From Saccharopolyspora gregorii (GTDB lineage: Bacteria > Actinomycetota > Actinomycetes > Mycobacteriales > Pseudonocardiaceae): a stretch of 64,000 nucleotides of DNA. The notes under the pieces are model-generated. The model made no database searches, was not told where the DNA came from, and saw only the letters and a list, made by a program, of their open reading frames with translations. Positions 18,990 to 48,464 of this stretch are shown here, piece by piece. Position 1 is the first letter of the stretch, and each line of letters starts with the position of its first letter. Made by a program: the position numbers and the translations under genes. Where the stretch lies: contig NZ_CP059556.1 of NCBI RefSeq assembly GCF_024734405.1, positions 4,464,001-4,528,000 of the forward strand, given 5' to 3'.

Positions 18990-20432
18990 ATGGCGGAACC
19001 TGGGCTCAGCCCCGGCAAGGGGATGTTGCGGCGCAAACCCATCGACGCGATCAGCGAGGACGACGGCGAGTCCGGCGGGCTCCAGCGCACCCTCGGGTTG
19101 TGGCAGCTGACCGCGATCGGCGTCGGCGGCATCATCGGCGCGGGCATCTTCTCGCTCGCCGGGGCCGTCGCCCACGGCAAGGCCGGCCCCGCGGTGCTGG
19201 TCTCGTTCCTCATCGCGGGGATCGCCAGCGCCGCGGCGGCGTTCTCCTACGCCGAGTTCGCGGGGATGATCCCGAAGGCCGGTTCGGCCTACACCTACGG
19301 CTACGCGGTGCTCGGCGAGATCGTCGGCTGGCTCATCGGCTGGGACCTGCTGCTGGAGTACACCGCGATCGTGTCCGTGGTGGCCATCGGCATCTCCGGG
19401 TACTTCACCGAGCTGCTCGGGTTCCTGCACGTCGAGCTGCCGCTGTGGATGGTCGGTGCCCCGGGCACCGAGGGCGGGGACGCGCCACCCGGCAGCTACA
19501 AGATCAACCTGTTCGCGGTGCTGCTGTGCCTGCTCATCGCGTTCGTGCTCAACCAGGGCATGAAGAACGCCGCCCGGTTCGAGACCGCGCTGGTCTACCT
19601 CAAGGTCGGCGTCGTGCTGCTCGTCGTCATCGTCGGCGCGTTCCACATCAACGCGGGCAACTACACGCCGTTCTTCCCGTTCGGCATCGGCGGTGCCATC
19701 ACCGGCGCGGCGACCGTGTTCTTCGCGGTGTTCGGCTACGACGCGATGTCCACCGCGGCGGAGGAGTCCAAGGACTCGCAGAAGCACATGCCGAAGGCGA
19801 TTCTGTACTCGCTGATCATCTCGATGGTGCTGTACGTGCTGGCCTGCCTGGTGCTCACCGGCATGATCCCGTACCAGGAGATCAGCGAGGAGAGCGCGTT
19901 CGCCACCGCGTTCGCCGACGTGGGCCTGCCCGTGGTCGGCGCGATCATCGCCGTCGGCGCCATCCTCGGCATCCTCACCGTGCTGTTCACCTTCATGCTC
20001 GGCGCCACCCGCGTCGGGTTCGCCATGTCCCGCGACGGGCTGCTGCCGAAGTGGTTCTCCCGCACCCACCCGGTGCGGAAGGTGCCGTCCCGGTTCACCT
20101 GGCTCATCGGCATCGTCTCCGCCGTGTTCGCCGGGCTGCTGCCCATCGAGGAGGCCGCGGAGCTGACCAACATCGGCATCCTGCTGGCGTTCGTCGTGGT
20201 CTGCGCCGCGGTGATCGTGCTGCGCTACAAGCGGCCCGAGCTGCCGCGCGGCTTCCGCACGCCGGGCATGCCGGTGGTACCGCTGATCGGCATCGTGTTC
20301 TCGCTGTGGCTGGTGACGTTCCTGGCGCCGGAGACGTGGCTGCGGTTCGCCGTCTGGTTCGCGATCGGGCTGGTGGTGTACGCGGCGTACGGCTACCGCC
20401 ACTCGAAGCTGAACCAGCCTTCCGACGACTGA
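18990..20432 (+). CDS. APC-superfamily cationic amino acid permease
   Basis: 480 aa with about 12 hydrophobic segments. ATG preceded by CAGGAGGACGCG. The N-terminal motif GVGGIIGAGIFSLAG (first membrane helix) binds the substrate carboxylate in APC transporters. The FAVFGYDAMSTAAEESKDSQKHMPKAI stretch is diagnostic of the CAT/YfnA-type amino acid permeases. It is monocistronic and diverges from the universal stress gene. A structured repeat follows its stop codon. Substrate is likely a basic or neutral amino acid; not determined. Confidence 0.92.
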   Translation: MAEPGLSPGKGMLRRKPIDAISEDDGESGGLQRTLGLWQLTAIGVGGIIGAGIFSLAGAVAHGKAGPAVLVSFLIAGIASAAAAFSYAEFAGMIPKAGSAYTYGYAVLGEIVGWLIGWDLLLEYTAIVSVVAIGISGYFTELLGFLHVELPLWMVGAPGTEGGDAPPGSYKINLFAVLLCLLIAFVLNQGMKNAARFETALVYLKVGVVLLVVIVGAFHINAGNYTPFFPFGIGGAITGAATVFFAVFGYDAMSTAAEESKDSQKHMPKAILYSLIISMVLYVLACLVLTGMIPYQEISEESAFATAFADVGLPVVGAIIAVGAILGILTVLFTFMLGATRVGFAMSRDGLLPKWFSRTHPVRKVPSRFTWLIGIVSAVFAGLLPIEEAAELTNIGILLAFVVVCAAVIVLRYKRPELPRGFRTPGMPVVPLIGIVFSLWLVTFLAPETWLRFAVWFAIGLVVYAAYGYRHSKLNQPSDD

Positions 20433-20467
20433 CAGGCGGTCTCCCCCCCGCTTCTGGTGCGTAGGGG

Positions 20468-20645
20468 TGGGGTGGCGGAACCTCAGCCGCTTCCTCGCTG
20501 CGGGATCTTTTTCCCGAGTGGCTCCGCCACGAGGGAAAAAGCTGTCCTCGCGAGGAAGCGGCTGAGAACCCGCTGGTGGTCCGGTTGCTTGCTGGGTCGC
20601 CGCTCAGCGGCTTCGCCGCTGACAGGAGACAGGCACGGCCTGCCC
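20468..20645 (+). repeat. Dispersed structured repeat, copy A
   Basis: Begins 36 bp after the permease stop. A 17-bp perfect inverted repeat (20482-20498 with 20550-20566, arm CTCAGCCGCTTCCTCGC) encloses a second stem (CTTTTTCCC / GGGAAAAAG, 20507-20515 with 20533-20541) and a small hairpin GTGG-CTCCG-CCAC. A separate 8-bp hairpin, TCAGCGGC-TTC-GCCGCTGA, follows at 20604-20622. The same order is found at 26155-26335 and, decayed, at 46545-46706 on the minus strand. It encodes no convincing protein. See findings. Confidence 0.85.
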
Positions 20646-20855
20646 GGCGGGTTCGCGAGCCGGCGATGAGTCGGGCTTCCGGTGGGTGGTGAGTCGACGA
20701 TCACCTGATCGGCCCCGGGTGCGGTGCAGTGCGTCACAGCGCGCCCGGGGGGCCGAGATCTAGGGTTGCCGGTGCCGTCGAGCTCGGCGGCACCGGTGCG
20801 GACCGGCCGAAGCAGCCGAGAACCGGCCGGTCCTCAACGTCGAGGGGTGTGCGCC

Positions 20856-25193: not shown

Positions 25194-26123
25194 ATGCTGC
25201 GCTCTGCTCTGCTGGCTGCGGCGCGTTCCACGAACGTGCGGCGGATCGTGGAATCCAACCCGCTGACCGGCCCGGTGGTGGACCGGTACGTGGCCGGGAC
25301 GACCGCGCTGGACGCGGTCGCGGCCACCCGCGCGCTCGCGGCGCGCGGCATGCGCACCACGCTGGACCACCTCGGCGAGGACACCCTCGACGCCGGGCGG
25401 GCCGCGGACACCGTGAACGCCTACCGGGCGGTGCTCGGTTCGCTCGGCGACGCGGGCCTGGCCGACCGGGCCGAGGTGTCGGTGAAGCTCTCCGCCGTCG
25501 GGCAGTCGCTGCCGGTGGACGGGGAGAAGATCGCGCTGGACAACGCGCGGCTGATCTGCGAGGCCGCCGCGGCGGCGGGCACCACGGTCACCCTCGACAT
25601 GGAGGACCACACCACCACGGACTCCACGCTGGGCATCCTGCGGGACCTGCGGGTGGACTTCCCGTGGGTGGGCGCGGTGCTGCAGGCGTACCTGCGGCGC
25701 ACCGAGCAGGACTGCCGGGACCTGGCCACGGCCGGTTCCCGGGTGCGGCTGTGCAAGGGCGCCTACGCCGAACCCGCCTCGGTCGCGTTCGCCGAACGGT
25801 CCGAAGTGGACAGGTCGTACGTGCGGTGCCTGCGGGTGCTGCTGGAAGGCGCGGGCTACCCGATGGTGGCCACGCACGACCCGCGGATGATCGAGATCGC
25901 GCTCGACCTGGCGGCGCGCGCCGGGCGGTCCGCGGAGGGCTTCGAGTTCCAGATGCTCTACGGGATCCGGCCCGACGAGCAGGAGCGGCTGGCCGCCGAA
26001 GGCCACCGGCTGCGGGTGTACGTGGCCTACGGCGACCAGTGGTACGGCTACTTCATGCGACGGCTGGCCGAACGCCCGGCGAATCTCGCGTTCTTCGCCC
26101 GGTCGTTGCTCGGCCGCGGCTGA
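25194..26123 (+). CDS. putB: Proline dehydrogenase (monofunctional)
   Basis: 309 aa; ATG after CTGAGGAGACCCG. FAD-binding beta/alpha barrel with VSVKLSAVGQ (catalytic Lys), TLDMEDHTTTDST, RLCKGAYAEP and the final EFQMLYGIRPDEQERLA plus VYVAYGDQWYGYFMRRLAERPAN, which carries the Y-x-x-R-R-x-x-E motif that contacts proline. It oxidises proline to pyrroline-5-carboxylate, passing electrons to quinone at the membrane. Second gene of the proline operon. A structured repeat follows 31 bp after the stop. Confidence 0.97.
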   Translation: MLRSALLAAARSTNVRRIVESNPLTGPVVDRYVAGTTALDAVAATRALAARGMRTTLDHLGEDTLDAGRAADTVNAYRAVLGSLGDAGLADRAEVSVKLSAVGQSLPVDGEKIALDNARLICEAAAAAGTTVTLDMEDHTTTDSTLGILRDLRVDFPWVGAVLQAYLRRTEQDCRDLATAGSRVRLCKGAYAEPASVAFAERSEVDRSYVRCLRVLLEGAGYPMVATHDPRMIEIALDLAARAGRSAEGFEFQMLYGIRPDEQERLAAEGHRLRVYVAYGDQWYGYFMRRLAERPANLAFFARSLLGRG

Positions 26124-26154
26124 TCCATGCTGTTCCACTCCTCTTGTGCAGCAC

Positions 26155-26335
26155 TGGGGTGGCGGAACCTCAGCGGCCCTCTCGCTGCGGGATCGTTTTC
26201 ACAGGTGGCTCCGCCACATGAGAAAACGCTGTCCTCGCGAGGGGGCCGCTGAGAACCCGCGGGTGGTCCTGCTGCGTGCGTGGTCGGCGGCTCAGCGGCT
26301 TCGCCGCTGACGAGCAACGGACACGACCCGCGGCG
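26155..26335 (+). repeat. Dispersed structured repeat, copy B
   Basis: Begins 31 bp after the proline dehydrogenase stop, in the sense of that gene. The long inverted repeat is 26169-26185 with 26237-26253 (one G-T wobble), the inner stem CGTTTTC/GAAAACG, and the same GTGG-CTCCG-CCAC hairpin is inside. The trailing hairpin TCAGCGGC-TTC-GCCGCTGA is at 26292-26310. Where the stems differ from copy A, most changes are matched on both arms. It lies between convergent genes (putB and the PKS), so it may also stop transcription. Confidence 0.85.
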
Positions 26336-26410
26336 CAAGTTGAAGACGAGCAGTGTGGTTCCGCTACCCGAGTGCTCCGCAAACCGAGCTGAAAGCTCCG
26401 GAACCCGTTT

Positions 26411-28488
26411 TCAGACCCAGAACTCCTGGTGTGCGAAGTGGTGTCCGGGCACCGGGATCGGGGTTCCGGTTCCCGTCCGCCGCCAGCCGACGGGGATTCC
26501 GCGCACGTGCAACCAGGCCAGCACCCGTTCCAGCGCTTCGGGCCCGCCGTGCTCCGGCAGTGCGATGACGTCGGCGTTCCCGGCGAGCTCTCCGCCGGTG
26601 CCGAGCACGACCGCCGAGCAGGTGCCGGACCGGGTCCGCTCCCGGACGGCCCCGGCGCAGTCACCGGTCGTGGTGACCGCGTCCGGTCCGAGCCCGGCGG
26701 CCGCGGCGACGTCCGCCGCCACCGACCCCGCCTCGACGGCGGCGACCACGTGGTCCGGGCGGACGCCCCAGTCGGCGAGTTCCGCGGCCAGCTCCACCTG
26801 GGCCTTGCCGGGCAGCGCGACCGGCAGCACCAGCACGACGTCCCGCGCGGTGCGGTCGCCCACCGGCACGTCGGCGGAGTCCGCGCCCGCGGCGAGCGCC
26901 CGCAACGCGCGCACCCCGTCCGGGGTGCTGCGGGGCAGGATCGCCGCCCGCCACGGGAATCCGCGTCGCGGCGTGATCGAGACGGCGACGTCGGCGGTCA
27001 GCGGATCGCCCGCGTCCTCGATCGCCCCGGCCAGCGCGCCCGCCTGCGCGCGCAGGCCCCGCTCGGTGCGCGCGTGCAGCAGCCACGGCGTGGTGCCCGC
27101 GGGTGCCGTCGACGCGGGCACGTCCTGCTCCTCGGCCTGCTCGACGATGACGTGGGCGAGGGTGCCGCTGATGCCGAATGCGGAGACCGCGGCGCGGCGC
27201 GGCCTGCCGACCTCCGGCCACGGCCGCGATTCGTGCAGCAGCGCCACTCCCCCGCCGTCCCACGCCACGTCGGTGGAGGCCCGCTCCACGTGCAGCGTCT
27301 TCGGCAGCACGCCCTCCCGGATCGCCCAGATCATCTTGATCAGGCTCGCCGCGCCGGCGGCGGCCTGGGTGTGGCCGAGGTTGGACTTCACCGAACCGAG
27401 CCACAGCGGGTGCTCCGCCGCGCGGCCCCGGCCGTAGACGGCCTGCAGGGCGTGCGCTTCGATCGTGTCGCCCAGCGGAGTCCCGGTGCCGTGCGCGTCG
27501 ATCGCGTCCACGTCGGCGGGGGTGAGCCCGCCGCGGCCCAGCGCCTCCTCGATGACGCGCTGCTGGGCGCGCCCGTTCGGCGCGGTGAGCCCGTTCGACG
27601 CCCCGTCCTGGCTGACCGCGCTGCCCCGCAGCACCGCGAGCACCCGGCGGCCGTTGCGGCGCGCGTCGGACAGCCGCTCCAGGACCAGCACCCCGACGCC
27701 CTCGCCCCAGCCGATGCCGTCGGCGTCGGCGGAGAACGCCTTGCAGGTCCCGTCGGCGGCGACGCCGTGCTTGCTGAACTCCAGGAACATCGACGGCGAG
27801 GCCATCGACGTGACCCCGGCGGCCAGCGCCAGCGAGCACTCCCCGCCGCGCAGCGCGTTGCTCGCCAGGTGCACCGCCACCAGCGACGAGGAGCACGCCG
27901 TGTCCACGGTGACCGCGGGCCCTTCCAGGCCGAACGCGTAGGCCACCCGCCCGGAGGTGACGCTCCTGGTCACGCTGGTCAGGTAGTTCTCGTCGTGGTT
28001 CAGGCCCGCCGCGTCGATGCGCGCGGTGTAGTCGTTGTACATCACCCCGACGTAGGCGCCGGTCGAGCTGCGCCGCAGCGAGGTCGGGTCGACTCCGGCG
28101 TGCTCGAACGCGTGCCAGGACGCCTCCAGCACGAGCCGCTGCTGCGGGTCCATCATGCGGGCCTCGTCGGGCTCGATGCCGAAGAACTCCGGGTCGAAGC
28201 CCTTGATGTCGATGAACCCGCCGCGTTCGGTGTTCGACTTGCCGGGGCGCCCGGGCACCGGGTCGTACAGGTCCGCCGGCCAGCCGCGGTCGGTGGGGAA
28301 GTCGCCCACGGCGCACCGCTCCCCGGCCACCAGGTCCCACAGCTGCTCCGCGGTGCCCACGTCACCGGGGTAGCGGCAGGCGACGCCGATCACGGCGATC
28401 GGCTCCTCGGCGGGTCGCGCCCGTTCGGCGCGCAGCCGTTCGTTCTCCAGCAACGCGGCCCGGAGGGCTTCGACGAGCTGCTCGGTCA

Positions 28489-28489: not shown

Positions 28490-37428
<8,939 letters not shown>

Positions 37429-46544: not shown

Positions 46545-46706
46545 GGCCAGTTCCCGGGAGCGTCGTACCGGTTCTGCCCGCGGCGAAGCCGCTGAGCCGC
46601 CGACCACCCGATCAACCGGGCCGCCCGCGGGCTCTCAGCGCGGACAGCGCCGCCGCCGTAGCCGAGCCACCGGTGACAACGATCTCGCAGCGAGGAAGCG
46701 GCCTCA
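46545..46706 (-). repeat. Dispersed structured repeat, copy C (decayed)
   Basis: On the minus strand, overlapping the stop codon of the ABC exporter gene. It keeps the left arm (CCGCTTCCTCGCTGCG), the GGTGGCTC centre, GCTGAGA-CCCGCGGG, and the end hairpin (46580-46595), all in the same order as copies A and B. The right arm of the long stem is deleted, so the big hairpin is lost. Confidence 0.75.
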
Positions 46707-48464
46707 GCCCTCCAGGGCCAGCTTCGCCTCCGGACGGGGCGTGCTCCAGGCCTCCCACAGCCGCGCGTAGTGCCCGCCCGCGGCGAGCAGCTCGTCGTGC
46801 GCGCCGGACTCGACGACGCGCCCGTCGTCCATCACCAGCACCCGGTCGGCGATCGCGGCCTGCCGCAGCCGGTGCGCCACCACGAGCCCGGCGCGGTCGC
46901 GCAGCACCGCGGCCGCGGCGTCCTCCAGGCGGCCGGCTTCGCGGCTGCTCGCCTCTGCGGTCGCCTCGTCCAGCAGCACCACGGCCGGGTCGGCGAGCAG
47001 CGCGCGGGCCAGCGCCACCTGCGCGACCCGGTCCGGGCCGAGCGGGTGGCCGAGCTCGCCCACGGCGGTGTGCACGCCCTCGGGCAGCTCCTCGATCCAG
47101 TCGGCGCCGACGACCTCCAGCGCGTGCCGGACCTCCGCCTCCGTCGCGTCCTGCCGGGCCAGGCGCAGGTCCTCGATCAGCGGGCCGCTGAACACGTGCG
47201 CCTCCTGCGGCACCAGCAGCACCGCGCCCGTCCCGGCCACCGGGCCTCCGCCGAAGGTGACGGTGCCCTCGTCCGGCTCGACCAGTCCCGCCAGCAGCGT
47301 CGCCAGCGTGGACTTGCCCGCACCGCTCGCGCCGACCAGCGCGATCGTCTCCCCCGGTTCGATCCGCAGCGACACCTCGTGCAGCACCGGCTCCGCCGAA
47401 CCCGGGTAGCGGTAGGTCACCCTGTCGGCGACGAGCGCGGCGGGCGCGCCGTCGTGGGCCCCGGCCGGCCGCTCGCGCGGGATGCCGAGGACGCCGACGA
47501 TGCGCTGCAGGCTCGCGAACGCGGACTGGACCTGGTCGAAGCTGGCCACCAGGAGGCTCAGCGGGTTGAACAACCGGTGGAAGTACAACGCCGCCGCGGT
47601 GACCGCGCCGACGGTCGCCGCACCCACGTCGACCAGCACGAACCCGGCGACGACGATGGCGGACAACCCGACGAGCTCGGCGATGTTCATCCACTTGCCC
47701 CAGCGGGTGGAGAACCACACGACGCTGCGGGACAGCCCGCGCGCCCGGTCCGAGGACCGCTCCACGAGCCCGACGTGCTCGGCTTCGGCGCCGTAGGCGC
47801 GCAGCGTGGGCAGCCCCTCCAGCGCGGAGACCAGCGACTCCGCCCGGTCGGCGAACGCGGCCCGCTCCGCGGAGTAGCGGCGCGCGGCGCGCGGCAGGTA
47901 CCAGCGCAGCGAGAACCCGTACACCGGCAGCGCCAGCATCCCCGCCACCATCAGCCACGGGTCGAGCGCGAACAGGCCGCCCATCGTCAGGGCCACGGTC
48001 AGCAGGGCGGTGATCCACGGCGCCAGCAGCGCGGCGACGACCTGGCTGATCACCGCCACGTCGTCGCCGACGCGGCTGAGCAGGTCGCCGCGGCCGGAGC
48101 GCTCGATCACCGCCGACGGCAGGTGCAGCGCGGCGGAGACGGTGTCCTCCCGCATCCGGGCCAGCACCCGCTGCCCGAGCTTCGCGACGAGGGCGGCGCT
48201 GACCGCGGTGAGCACCGCGCTGAGCAGGCCGGCGACCGCGACGACGGCGGTGCGCACGACGATCTCCGCCGGCGTGGTGCCCGCCAGCACCCCGTCCACC
48301 AGCCCGCCGATCGCCCACGGCGCGACCAGCCCGGCGAGCGCGGCGAGCACGGCCGTCGCCACCATCGCCGCGGACAGCCCGCGGTGCGGGCGCAGGTAGG
48401 CGGCGACGGTGCGCCGCACCTCGACGGCCCCGGCGAGCGGAAGTGCGCGAGTGGTCCCGCTCAT
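46704..48464 (-). CDS. ABC exporter half-transporter (site with intact Walker A/B, degenerate signature)
   Basis: 586 aa with six membrane helices at about 30-320 and a nucleotide-binding domain at about 345-575. Walker A GASGAGKST and Walker B AVVLLDEAT are intact, and the switch His (VVAHRL) is present. The ABC signature, normally LSGGQ, reads LGPDR. The gene start overlaps the end of its partner exporter gene (ATGA), so the two form a heterodimer. With the partner's intact LSGGQ, one complete ATP site is formed. An iron-box-like site upstream of the pair suggests a siderophore or iron-related substrate. Confidence 0.92.
   Translation of the reverse strand: MSGTTRALPLAGAVEVRRTVAAYLRPHRGLSAAMVATAVLAALAGLVAPWAIGGLVDGVLAGTTPAEIVVRTAVVAVAGLLSAVLTAVSAALVAKLGQRVLARMREDTVSAALHLPSAVIERSGRGDLLSRVGDDVAVISQVVAALLAPWITALLTVALTMGGLFALDPWLMVAGMLALPVYGFSLRWYLPRAARRYSAERAAFADRAESLVSALEGLPTLRAYGAEAEHVGLVERSSDRARGLSRSVVWFSTRWGKWMNIAELVGLSAIVVAGFVLVDVGAATVGAVTAAALYFHRLFNPLSLLVASFDQVQSAFASLQRIVGVLGIPRERPAGAHDGAPAALVADRVTYRYPGSAEPVLHEVSLRIEPGETIALVGASGAGKSTLATLLAGLVEPDEGTVTFGGGPVAGTGAVLLVPQEAHVFSGPLIEDLRLARQDATEAEVRHALEVVGADWIEELPEGVHTAVGELGHPLGPDRVAQVALARALLADPAVVLLDEATAEASSREAGRLEDAAAAVLRDRAGLVVAHRLRQAAIADRVLVMDDGRVVESGAHDELLAAGGHYARLWEAWSTPRPEAKLALEG

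Follow-up and report, generated by a model that had tools for sequence, protein, structure and literature searches.

A hairpin-bearing miniature element, probably of IS5 type, behind stop codons in Saccharopolyspora gregorii and other Pseudonocardiaceae

Two similar intergenic stretches, A and B, in a 64,000-nucleotide segment of the Saccharopolyspora gregorii genome (called the window here, meaning the whole stretch of DNA that was analysed) belong to one family, of which that genome has no fewer than 113 copies. This is probably a non-autonomous miniature element of the Pseudonocardiaceae of ca 230–280 bp, moved in trans by IS5-family transposases with duplication of a TNA target, and its hairpin would act as a 3'-end module. 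The evidence comes from covariation between copies, from filled and empty sites in congeners, and from an insertion sequence in S. rosea with near-identical ends.

Direct reading of A and B confirms the common layout described for them in the first-pass annotation (Table 1). The outer arms are CTCAGCCGCTTCCTCGC and GCGAGGAAGCGGCTGAG in A and CTCAGCGGCCCTCTCGC and GCGAGGGGGCCGCTGAG in B. As had been claimed, the changes at position 7 (C-G to G-C) and at positions 10 and 11 (T-A to C-G) are matched on the opposite arm, position 12 turns into a T-G wobble, and in the inner stem a T-A pair is replaced by G-C. The extent had been drawn too short, however, copy A being best bounded by two TGA triplets (20433–20689). 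A third copy, C, had been mentioned without coordinates; after A and B, the best match in the window is a decayed minus-strand copy (46621–46712), immediately behind a TGA (46704–46706) and with its own 3' hairpin at 46577–46595. The minus-strand remnant at 26357–26391 faces a convergent polyketide synthase gene ending at 26411.

Table 1. Features of the element in the window (positions counted from its first nucleotide).
Feature	Position	Strand	Basis or remark
Stop codon (TGA) of the amino acid permease gene upstream, left target-duplication copy of A	20430–20432	+	ORF 18990–20432, PF13520
Copy A, entire element between two TGA triplets	20433–20689	+	right end inferred by aligning empty sites
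A, lead GGTGGCGGAACCTCAG	20471–20486	+	16-base lead search
A, outer stem, 5' arm	20482–20498	+	read directly and covariation
A, inner stem, 5' arm	20507–20515	+	alignment and covariation
A, apical hairpin GTGGCTCCGCCAC	20518–20530	+	hairpin search
A, inner stem, 3' arm	20533–20541	+	alignment and covariation
A, outer stem, 3' arm	20550–20566	+	read directly and covariation
A, separate 3' hairpin TCAGCGGCTTCGCCGCTGA	20604–20622	+	no T run after it
Right TGA of A's target duplication	20690–20692	+	empty-site downstream sequence restarts here (TGAGTCGACGATC)
TGA stop codon of proline dehydrogenase gene; copy B begins right after	26121–26123	+	ORF 25194–26123, PF01619
Copy B; right end approximate	26124–26335	+	direct reading and covariance model
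B, core hit	26155–26266	+	covariance model, 135 bits
B, apical hairpin GTGGCTCCGCCAC	26205–26217	+	hairpin search
B, 3' hairpin TCAGCGGCTTCGCCGCTGA	26292–26310	+	hairpin search
Truncated left part of a further copy	26357–26391	-	lead search; model match 26324–26371 only E 0.66
Decayed copy without lead	46550–46712	-	model match 46621–46712, 23.2 bits, E 0.0017

With up to 3 mismatches, the 16-base lead gives 8 matches in the window (shuffles: mean 1.2, maximum 5) and the 3' hairpin 5 (mean 0.09, maximum 3), two of these five being the same palindromes counted from the opposite strand. The apical hairpin alone is within chance in the window, with 10 matches compared to 7.7 in shuffles. Both hairpins, in A as in B, lack the T run of an intrinsic terminator; they may still be terminators of a kind that has no such run. 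The window also contains three matches to ASpks (RF01782), at 27386–27460, 34771–34845 and 31753–31827, all on the strand opposite to minus-strand polyketide synthase frames, and these probably reflect coding similarity of the polyketide synthase genes.

Searched across the genome, the exact 15-base lead gives 113 matches (60 forward, 53 reverse) and its reversed control none. For the covariation analysis 53 copies were aligned, 2 of 55 cores having been dropped before model building, and 39 pairs were counted. Paired cells make up 96.2%, compared to 88.1% in shuffles and 40–50% when the partners are slid. In the outer and inner stems 12 pairs are altered on both sides, a change that is seen in 156 cells compared to 49.8 in shuffles, and the covariation score is 0.185 against 0.057, it being important to note that these cells are not independent events, because the copies are related. 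The number of further pair types is within the shuffle range (26 versus 24.1, with 93 of 500 shuffles reaching 26). What the first-pass annotation had expected of a genome-wide search, that is, many copies with covariation beside the 3' ends of genes, was thus found. Its view that the structure is selected rather than the sequence holds in one half only: the covariation is strong, but the lead, loops and tail are nearly invariant in the alignment (GGTGGCGGAACCTCAG, TGCGGGATC, CTGTCCTCGCGAG and GCTGAGAACCCGC), and the sequence is therefore conserved as well as the structure.

The stems fall into a few discrete haplotypes, each recurring across many copies. At one locus (L015, 1504–1849) two complete copies stand tail to tail between convergent genes, forming a large inverted repeat. 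At 100 of the 113 places the strand was compared with the half of the record, and plus-strand copies prevail in the first half (44 of 61), minus-strand copies in the second (27 of 39), an asymmetry that gene orientation may explain.

Comparison with congeners indicates that the element is mobile. The gene upstream of 16 S. gregorii copies was located in five congeners, and 60 orthologous regions from four of them were compared (G046 excluded). A copy is present in 6 of these regions (p944015 and p684235 in G120, p536319 in G101, and p4803982 in G101, G120 and G121) and absent in 54; A and B have no counterpart at the orthologous place in any of the four. At site A, near congeners read TCATGAGTCGACGATC where S. 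gregorii has TGA[257 bp]TGAGTCGACGATC, and the six bases ahead of the TGA differ between filled and empty sites. At p536319, G101 has GGCTGA[AAGCCGTTG...CAACGGC]TGACGATC, with TGA on both sides, compared to the empty GGCTGA site GGCTGACGATC in G121. These two, copy A and p536319 in G101, are the clean cases in which the element itself is seen to duplicate a TNA target; several other junctions are blurred, as at the G101 copies L314, L321, L322 and L324, for which G121 is empty. At other G101 copies, G121 holds an intact or decayed copy, and at L337 the hairpin has been lost between CTCAGCGG repeats. Whole stems have been exchanged at orthologous places with similar flanks (p4803982; L316/L347), and together with the recurring haplotypes this suggests that gene conversion or re-insertion acts in addition to selection.

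We now consider the ends. In the relatives the terminal repeats read G(A/T)GCCTGTCTTYGA, and by species TGAGAGCCTGTCTTCGAACTC in S. rosea and GCGATTTCAATGAGGTTTTTCC (also given as GCGATTTCAATGAGG) in S. hirsuta. Terminal inverted repeats are present in the S. rosea, NFXS83 and G101 copies and weak in S. gregorii; over 195 copies, left and right ends of the same copy match slightly better than ends of different copies (mean 10.3 versus 8.9). The S. rosea genome has 96 exact matches to the left-end motif GCCTGTCTTNGAACTC, and 29 of the 30 that were fetched adjoin the lead. It also has 11 PF13340 matches, 10 of which are within near-identical insertion sequences of 960–963 bp with ends GTGCCTGTCTTTGATC, encoding a protein of 277 residues that is an IS5-family transposase (NF033580, E 7e-59; PF13340, PF01609). 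All 10 have duplicated a TNA target (TGA/TGA in 7, TCA/TCA in 3); such a target is usual for some IS5 groups. Nine of the 10 (loci L391–L405) are inside the lead of the present element, although these are not nine independent choices, since several share flanks (L395 and L401 are identical). The element goes to the same place: 8 of the 30 fetched S. rosea matches are nested in the ACCTCA of another lead, and the CTCAG that opens the 5' arm of A's outer stem is the CTNAG site of the nested insertions. The NFXS83 copy L333, finally, ends in GTGCCTGTCTTTGATCTTGG...GATCAAAGACAGGC, the same as the S. rosea insertion sequence. It is on the near-identical ends, the TNA duplications, the nesting and the L333 ends that we read the element as an IS5-family MITE. 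The idea that the middle base of the TNA sets the orientation finds no support, as S. rosea left flanks are both CTGAG and CTCAG.

In S. gregorii itself, a search for the PF13340 (DUF4096-type) branch of IS5 transposases gave no match, and given this and the weak end repeats, the copies there are probably fossils or reliant on another IS5 branch; by their sequence they look like old insertions. The S. hirsuta ends differ, with GCGATTTCAATGAGGTTTTTCC on both sides at loci such as L065, L068 and L113, so another transposase or target may act there, and these repeats are so far without a linked transposase.

The position of the copies relative to genes was examined with gene ends called by length and GC3 rules, and 187 of 195 copies could be judged, the other 8 having too little upstream sequence. 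A sense stop codon is found within 150 nt of the lead in 145 of the judged copies, and in 104 of these it is at 25–42 nt. As the full left end is ca 36 nt, the element starts at or near the stop codon in those 104. No sense stop is found inside 150 nt in 42 of the 187. Of 57 S. gregorii copies, the left end lies close to a sense stop in 40 and the right end to a convergent stop in 11; the corresponding numbers are 18 and 3 of 32 in G101, 12 and 3 of 28 in S. rosea, and 10 and 3 of 24 in S. hirsuta. TGA accounts for 124 of the 145 sense stops, a raw count from which no enrichment is claimed. At the places of B, p4620284 and L321, empty congeners have terminator-like hairpins after the stop, and the filled sites lack them; at L314 and p1253073 the native hairpin persists next to the element. 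The element's hairpin is perhaps a built-in transcript end.

Outside S. gregorii, species genomes were scanned with the 16-base lead, a query for which chance alone yields roughly as many matches in a collection of that size. Among the matches listed there is clustering in Saccharopolyspora, and the same layout was found at those in Amycolatopsis bartoniae, Prauserella flavalba and Halopolyspora algeriensis; matches in Prauserella rugosa, Streptomyces and Nocardiopsis lack this layout. Of 120 family genomes sampled, 19 contain the exact lead. The covariance model matches 25 of 100 family genomes, from 12 of 46 genera, and over 200 genomes of the order it matched 11, all in the window's family; with up to 38 and 19 scored matches per genome counted in these two surveys, the copy numbers are to be taken as "at least". 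A model R1 was applied to 96 chosen loci; its alignment, which includes antisense duplicates, was kept out of all counts. The order of the parts stays the same between copies. The left end is followed by the lead, an outer stem with covariation, a conserved internal loop, an inner stem that also covaries, a variable apical hairpin and the tail, and in most copies across genera an additional hairpin comes last. The loops are the best conserved part across genera.

Some copies differ in detail. In seven G101 loci (L301, L302, L310–L312, L316, L317) and two of NFXS83 (L089, L101), an array of small hairpins such as AGGCACGGCTTCGCCGCAAGGC replaces the 3' hairpin. An additional insert of ca 50 bases with the motif CGCCCGTCACCCGACCACC is found in L090, L104, L108, L138, L171, L410 and L416; it lies in the outer stem or near the apex and is common to S. 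rosea, Prauserella and the genus g34. Another palindromic repeat, AGTGAACGGACCGTTCGTCCAA...TTGGGCGAACGGTCCGTTCACT with variants, is dispersed in the congeners, where it follows genes and sometimes stands several in a row (L242, L276, L251, L266, L284, L271, L291).

The first-pass annotation knew no named element with this layout. For the element we found no Rfam match above the gathering cut-off, and a literature search, largely without subscription journals, gave no description of the family and no matching named MITE family; in PMC12306157 the name Saccharopolyspora occurs 0 times. Copy A has no plasmid or phage match in a search from which records near its own genome may be excluded. On the other hand, the mobility of the unit had escaped the first-pass annotation, and the IS5-type MITE ends and target duplication in the relatives provide in part the transposon affinity that had been named as evidence against the proposed structure.

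In the genus g34 copies are few: all 7 genomes have 1–4 matches, and G095, G067 and G116 have one each. Five copies are behind gatB, three behind a second gene and two behind an acyl-CoA dehydrogenase-like gene, the names gatB and acyl-CoA dehydrogenase-like being a sequence reading rather than a family search. At gatB, each of the 8 variable outer-stem pairs in the five copies includes a two-sided change, with 7 of 40 cells unpaired, and 5 of 28 variable columns fall outside the modelled pairs. G095 and G067 have cores that are distinguished by two compensated pairs and a single lead-flank base, and the sequence past the 3' part is rearranged. Covariation is found again in other genera and at an orthologous low-copy locus. 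Because the hairpin is retained at this locus in five species, the structure looks selected beyond mobility. Exchange between copies may be an alternative source of the pairing at gatB; G095, G067 and G116, however, hold a single match.

These observations suggest the following scenario. The element would be transposed by the IS5 type of mechanism into TNA targets, as the comparison of the clean cases indicates, with the enzyme presumably acting in trans. The CTCAG of the lead has received both the insertion sequence and, as the nested copies show, the element itself. Insertion at a stop codon would leave the protein intact and do little harm, so that sense copies could be retained, and the sense bias, common to the four species examined, suggests that one strand is selected or that insertion is oriented. 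The hairpin would give the host gene a new 3' end, either as the end of the transcript or as a shield against exonucleases, and such a role would select for the pairing. In a more far-reaching form, which we consider possible but hold only tentatively, the element carries its own selected 3'-end module: it inserts in sense at stops and replaces the native terminator, the foot of the hairpin doubles as the target of the element's transposase, with fresh insertions landing in older copies, and in part of the family it has been domesticated as a gene end whose pairing outlasts mobility. Several points speak against the main reading, namely the weak ends and the lack of a PF13340 match in the own genome, the deviating S. 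hirsuta ends, the six bases at A, the blurred junctions, the 42 copies lacking a nearby stop and the 3' hairpin with no T run.

It is important to consider which molecule is paired, and whether the pairing is selected at all. With copies having unequal arms or more than 6 non-Watson–Crick pairs omitted, sense-strand mismatches counted per species group are of the A-C type in 57 cases and of the G-T (G-U) type in 16, counts that are non-independent because haplotypes are shared. The wobble test for a sense RNA therefore came out against it, G-U not being favoured over A-C in the variable stems. In an antisense transcript or a minus-strand single-stranded DNA the A-C mismatches become U-G and the AAC/AAC loop reads GUU/GUU, as would be expected if one of these were the structured molecule. 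However, the conserved loop windows show a like bias (69 changes of G>A and T>C, 24 of C>T and A>G, with two positions dominating), folding energies do not separate the strands (46 versus 43 of 90), and two conserved G-U pairs of the internal loop are in keeping with a sense-strand molecule. Mutation bias may explain the A-C excess. Since the loop control leans the same way and the folding energies separate neither strand, we do not claim an antisense RNA, and consider a minus-strand molecule rather improbable. Pairing could also arise unselected, if template switching or repair in the palindrome equalizes the arms and gene conversion spreads the variants, and both the few recurring stem haplotypes and the whole-stem exchange at orthologous places would fit this. 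Yet mismatches persist in all but 35 of the 90 unique outer stems, the loops, which such repair would leave unprotected, are the best conserved part, and paired change is seen even in the single-match genomes of g34, making this explanation an unlikely one.

One can also turn the argument around and regard the element as a structured RNA that serves the host in 3' untranslated regions and was spread among genes by recombination, the transposon-like ends of some species being secondary captures. The conservation of the core in 12 of 46 sampled genera while the ends vary by species would follow naturally, as would the orthologous copies behind gatB in five of the seven g34 genomes and the sense position after stops. 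The TNA duplications and IS5 ends, the excess of A-C over G-U mismatches in sense and the lack of an Rfam match argue against it, and we judge it to be quite unlikely. A REP element mobilized by a RAYT (Y1) transposase would likewise be dispersed, extragenic and hairpin-forming, and REP/RAYT systems share dispersed extragenic palindromes with the present family. The element is, however, ten times longer, its size and TNA duplication are unsuitable, and the own genome has no match to the Y1 transposase family PF01797, for which a control set was positive in 6 of 14 genomes; this possibility is negligible and was rejected.

Seen as an IS5-family MITE, the element has the expected short terminal inverted repeats, 3-bp TNA duplication and non-coding nature, with an IS5-family transposase of near-same ends in S. 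rosea. It is unlike such MITEs in its long internal hairpin, whose loops are fixed and whose stems covary and which is retained over genera, and in its strong stop-codon and sense bias and its insertion into its own lead. In position and hairpin it resembles ERIC, YPAL and SPRITE (PMC2229807, PMC10969869). ERIC, YPAL/RU-2 and NEMIS/Correia are described as small, intergenic elements with hairpin-forming transcripts, ERIC and NEMIS being implicated in mRNA stability, and YPAL targets span or adjoin dyad symmetry (PMC2229807). Compared by description only, they differ in their hosts and mostly in having TA-type ends, and a covarying core is unmentioned in the parts of the source consulted. In S. 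pneumoniae, SPRITE has terminator-like hairpins, and SPRITE, BOX and RUP elements insert into each other (PMC10969869); here too the comparison is by description, the host is another one, and the consulted parts make no mention of a conserved covarying core. What seems new is that a covarying core is retained across genera, that the copies are placed at stop codons and that the element targets itself.

As a rule, bacterial miniature elements are taken to be decaying passengers. For the present family, the interior structure conserved in 12 of 46 sampled genera and the orthologous low-copy sites point to a selected role, while the ends tie the element to IS5 transposases. With this family one can also test whether compensatory changes in repeats reflect selection on RNA, selection on DNA or exchange between copies. 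If the hairpin does serve as a gene end, a single mobile element would have rewritten the 3' ends of some 100 genes in one genome, and the genes so rewritten would largely differ between congeners.
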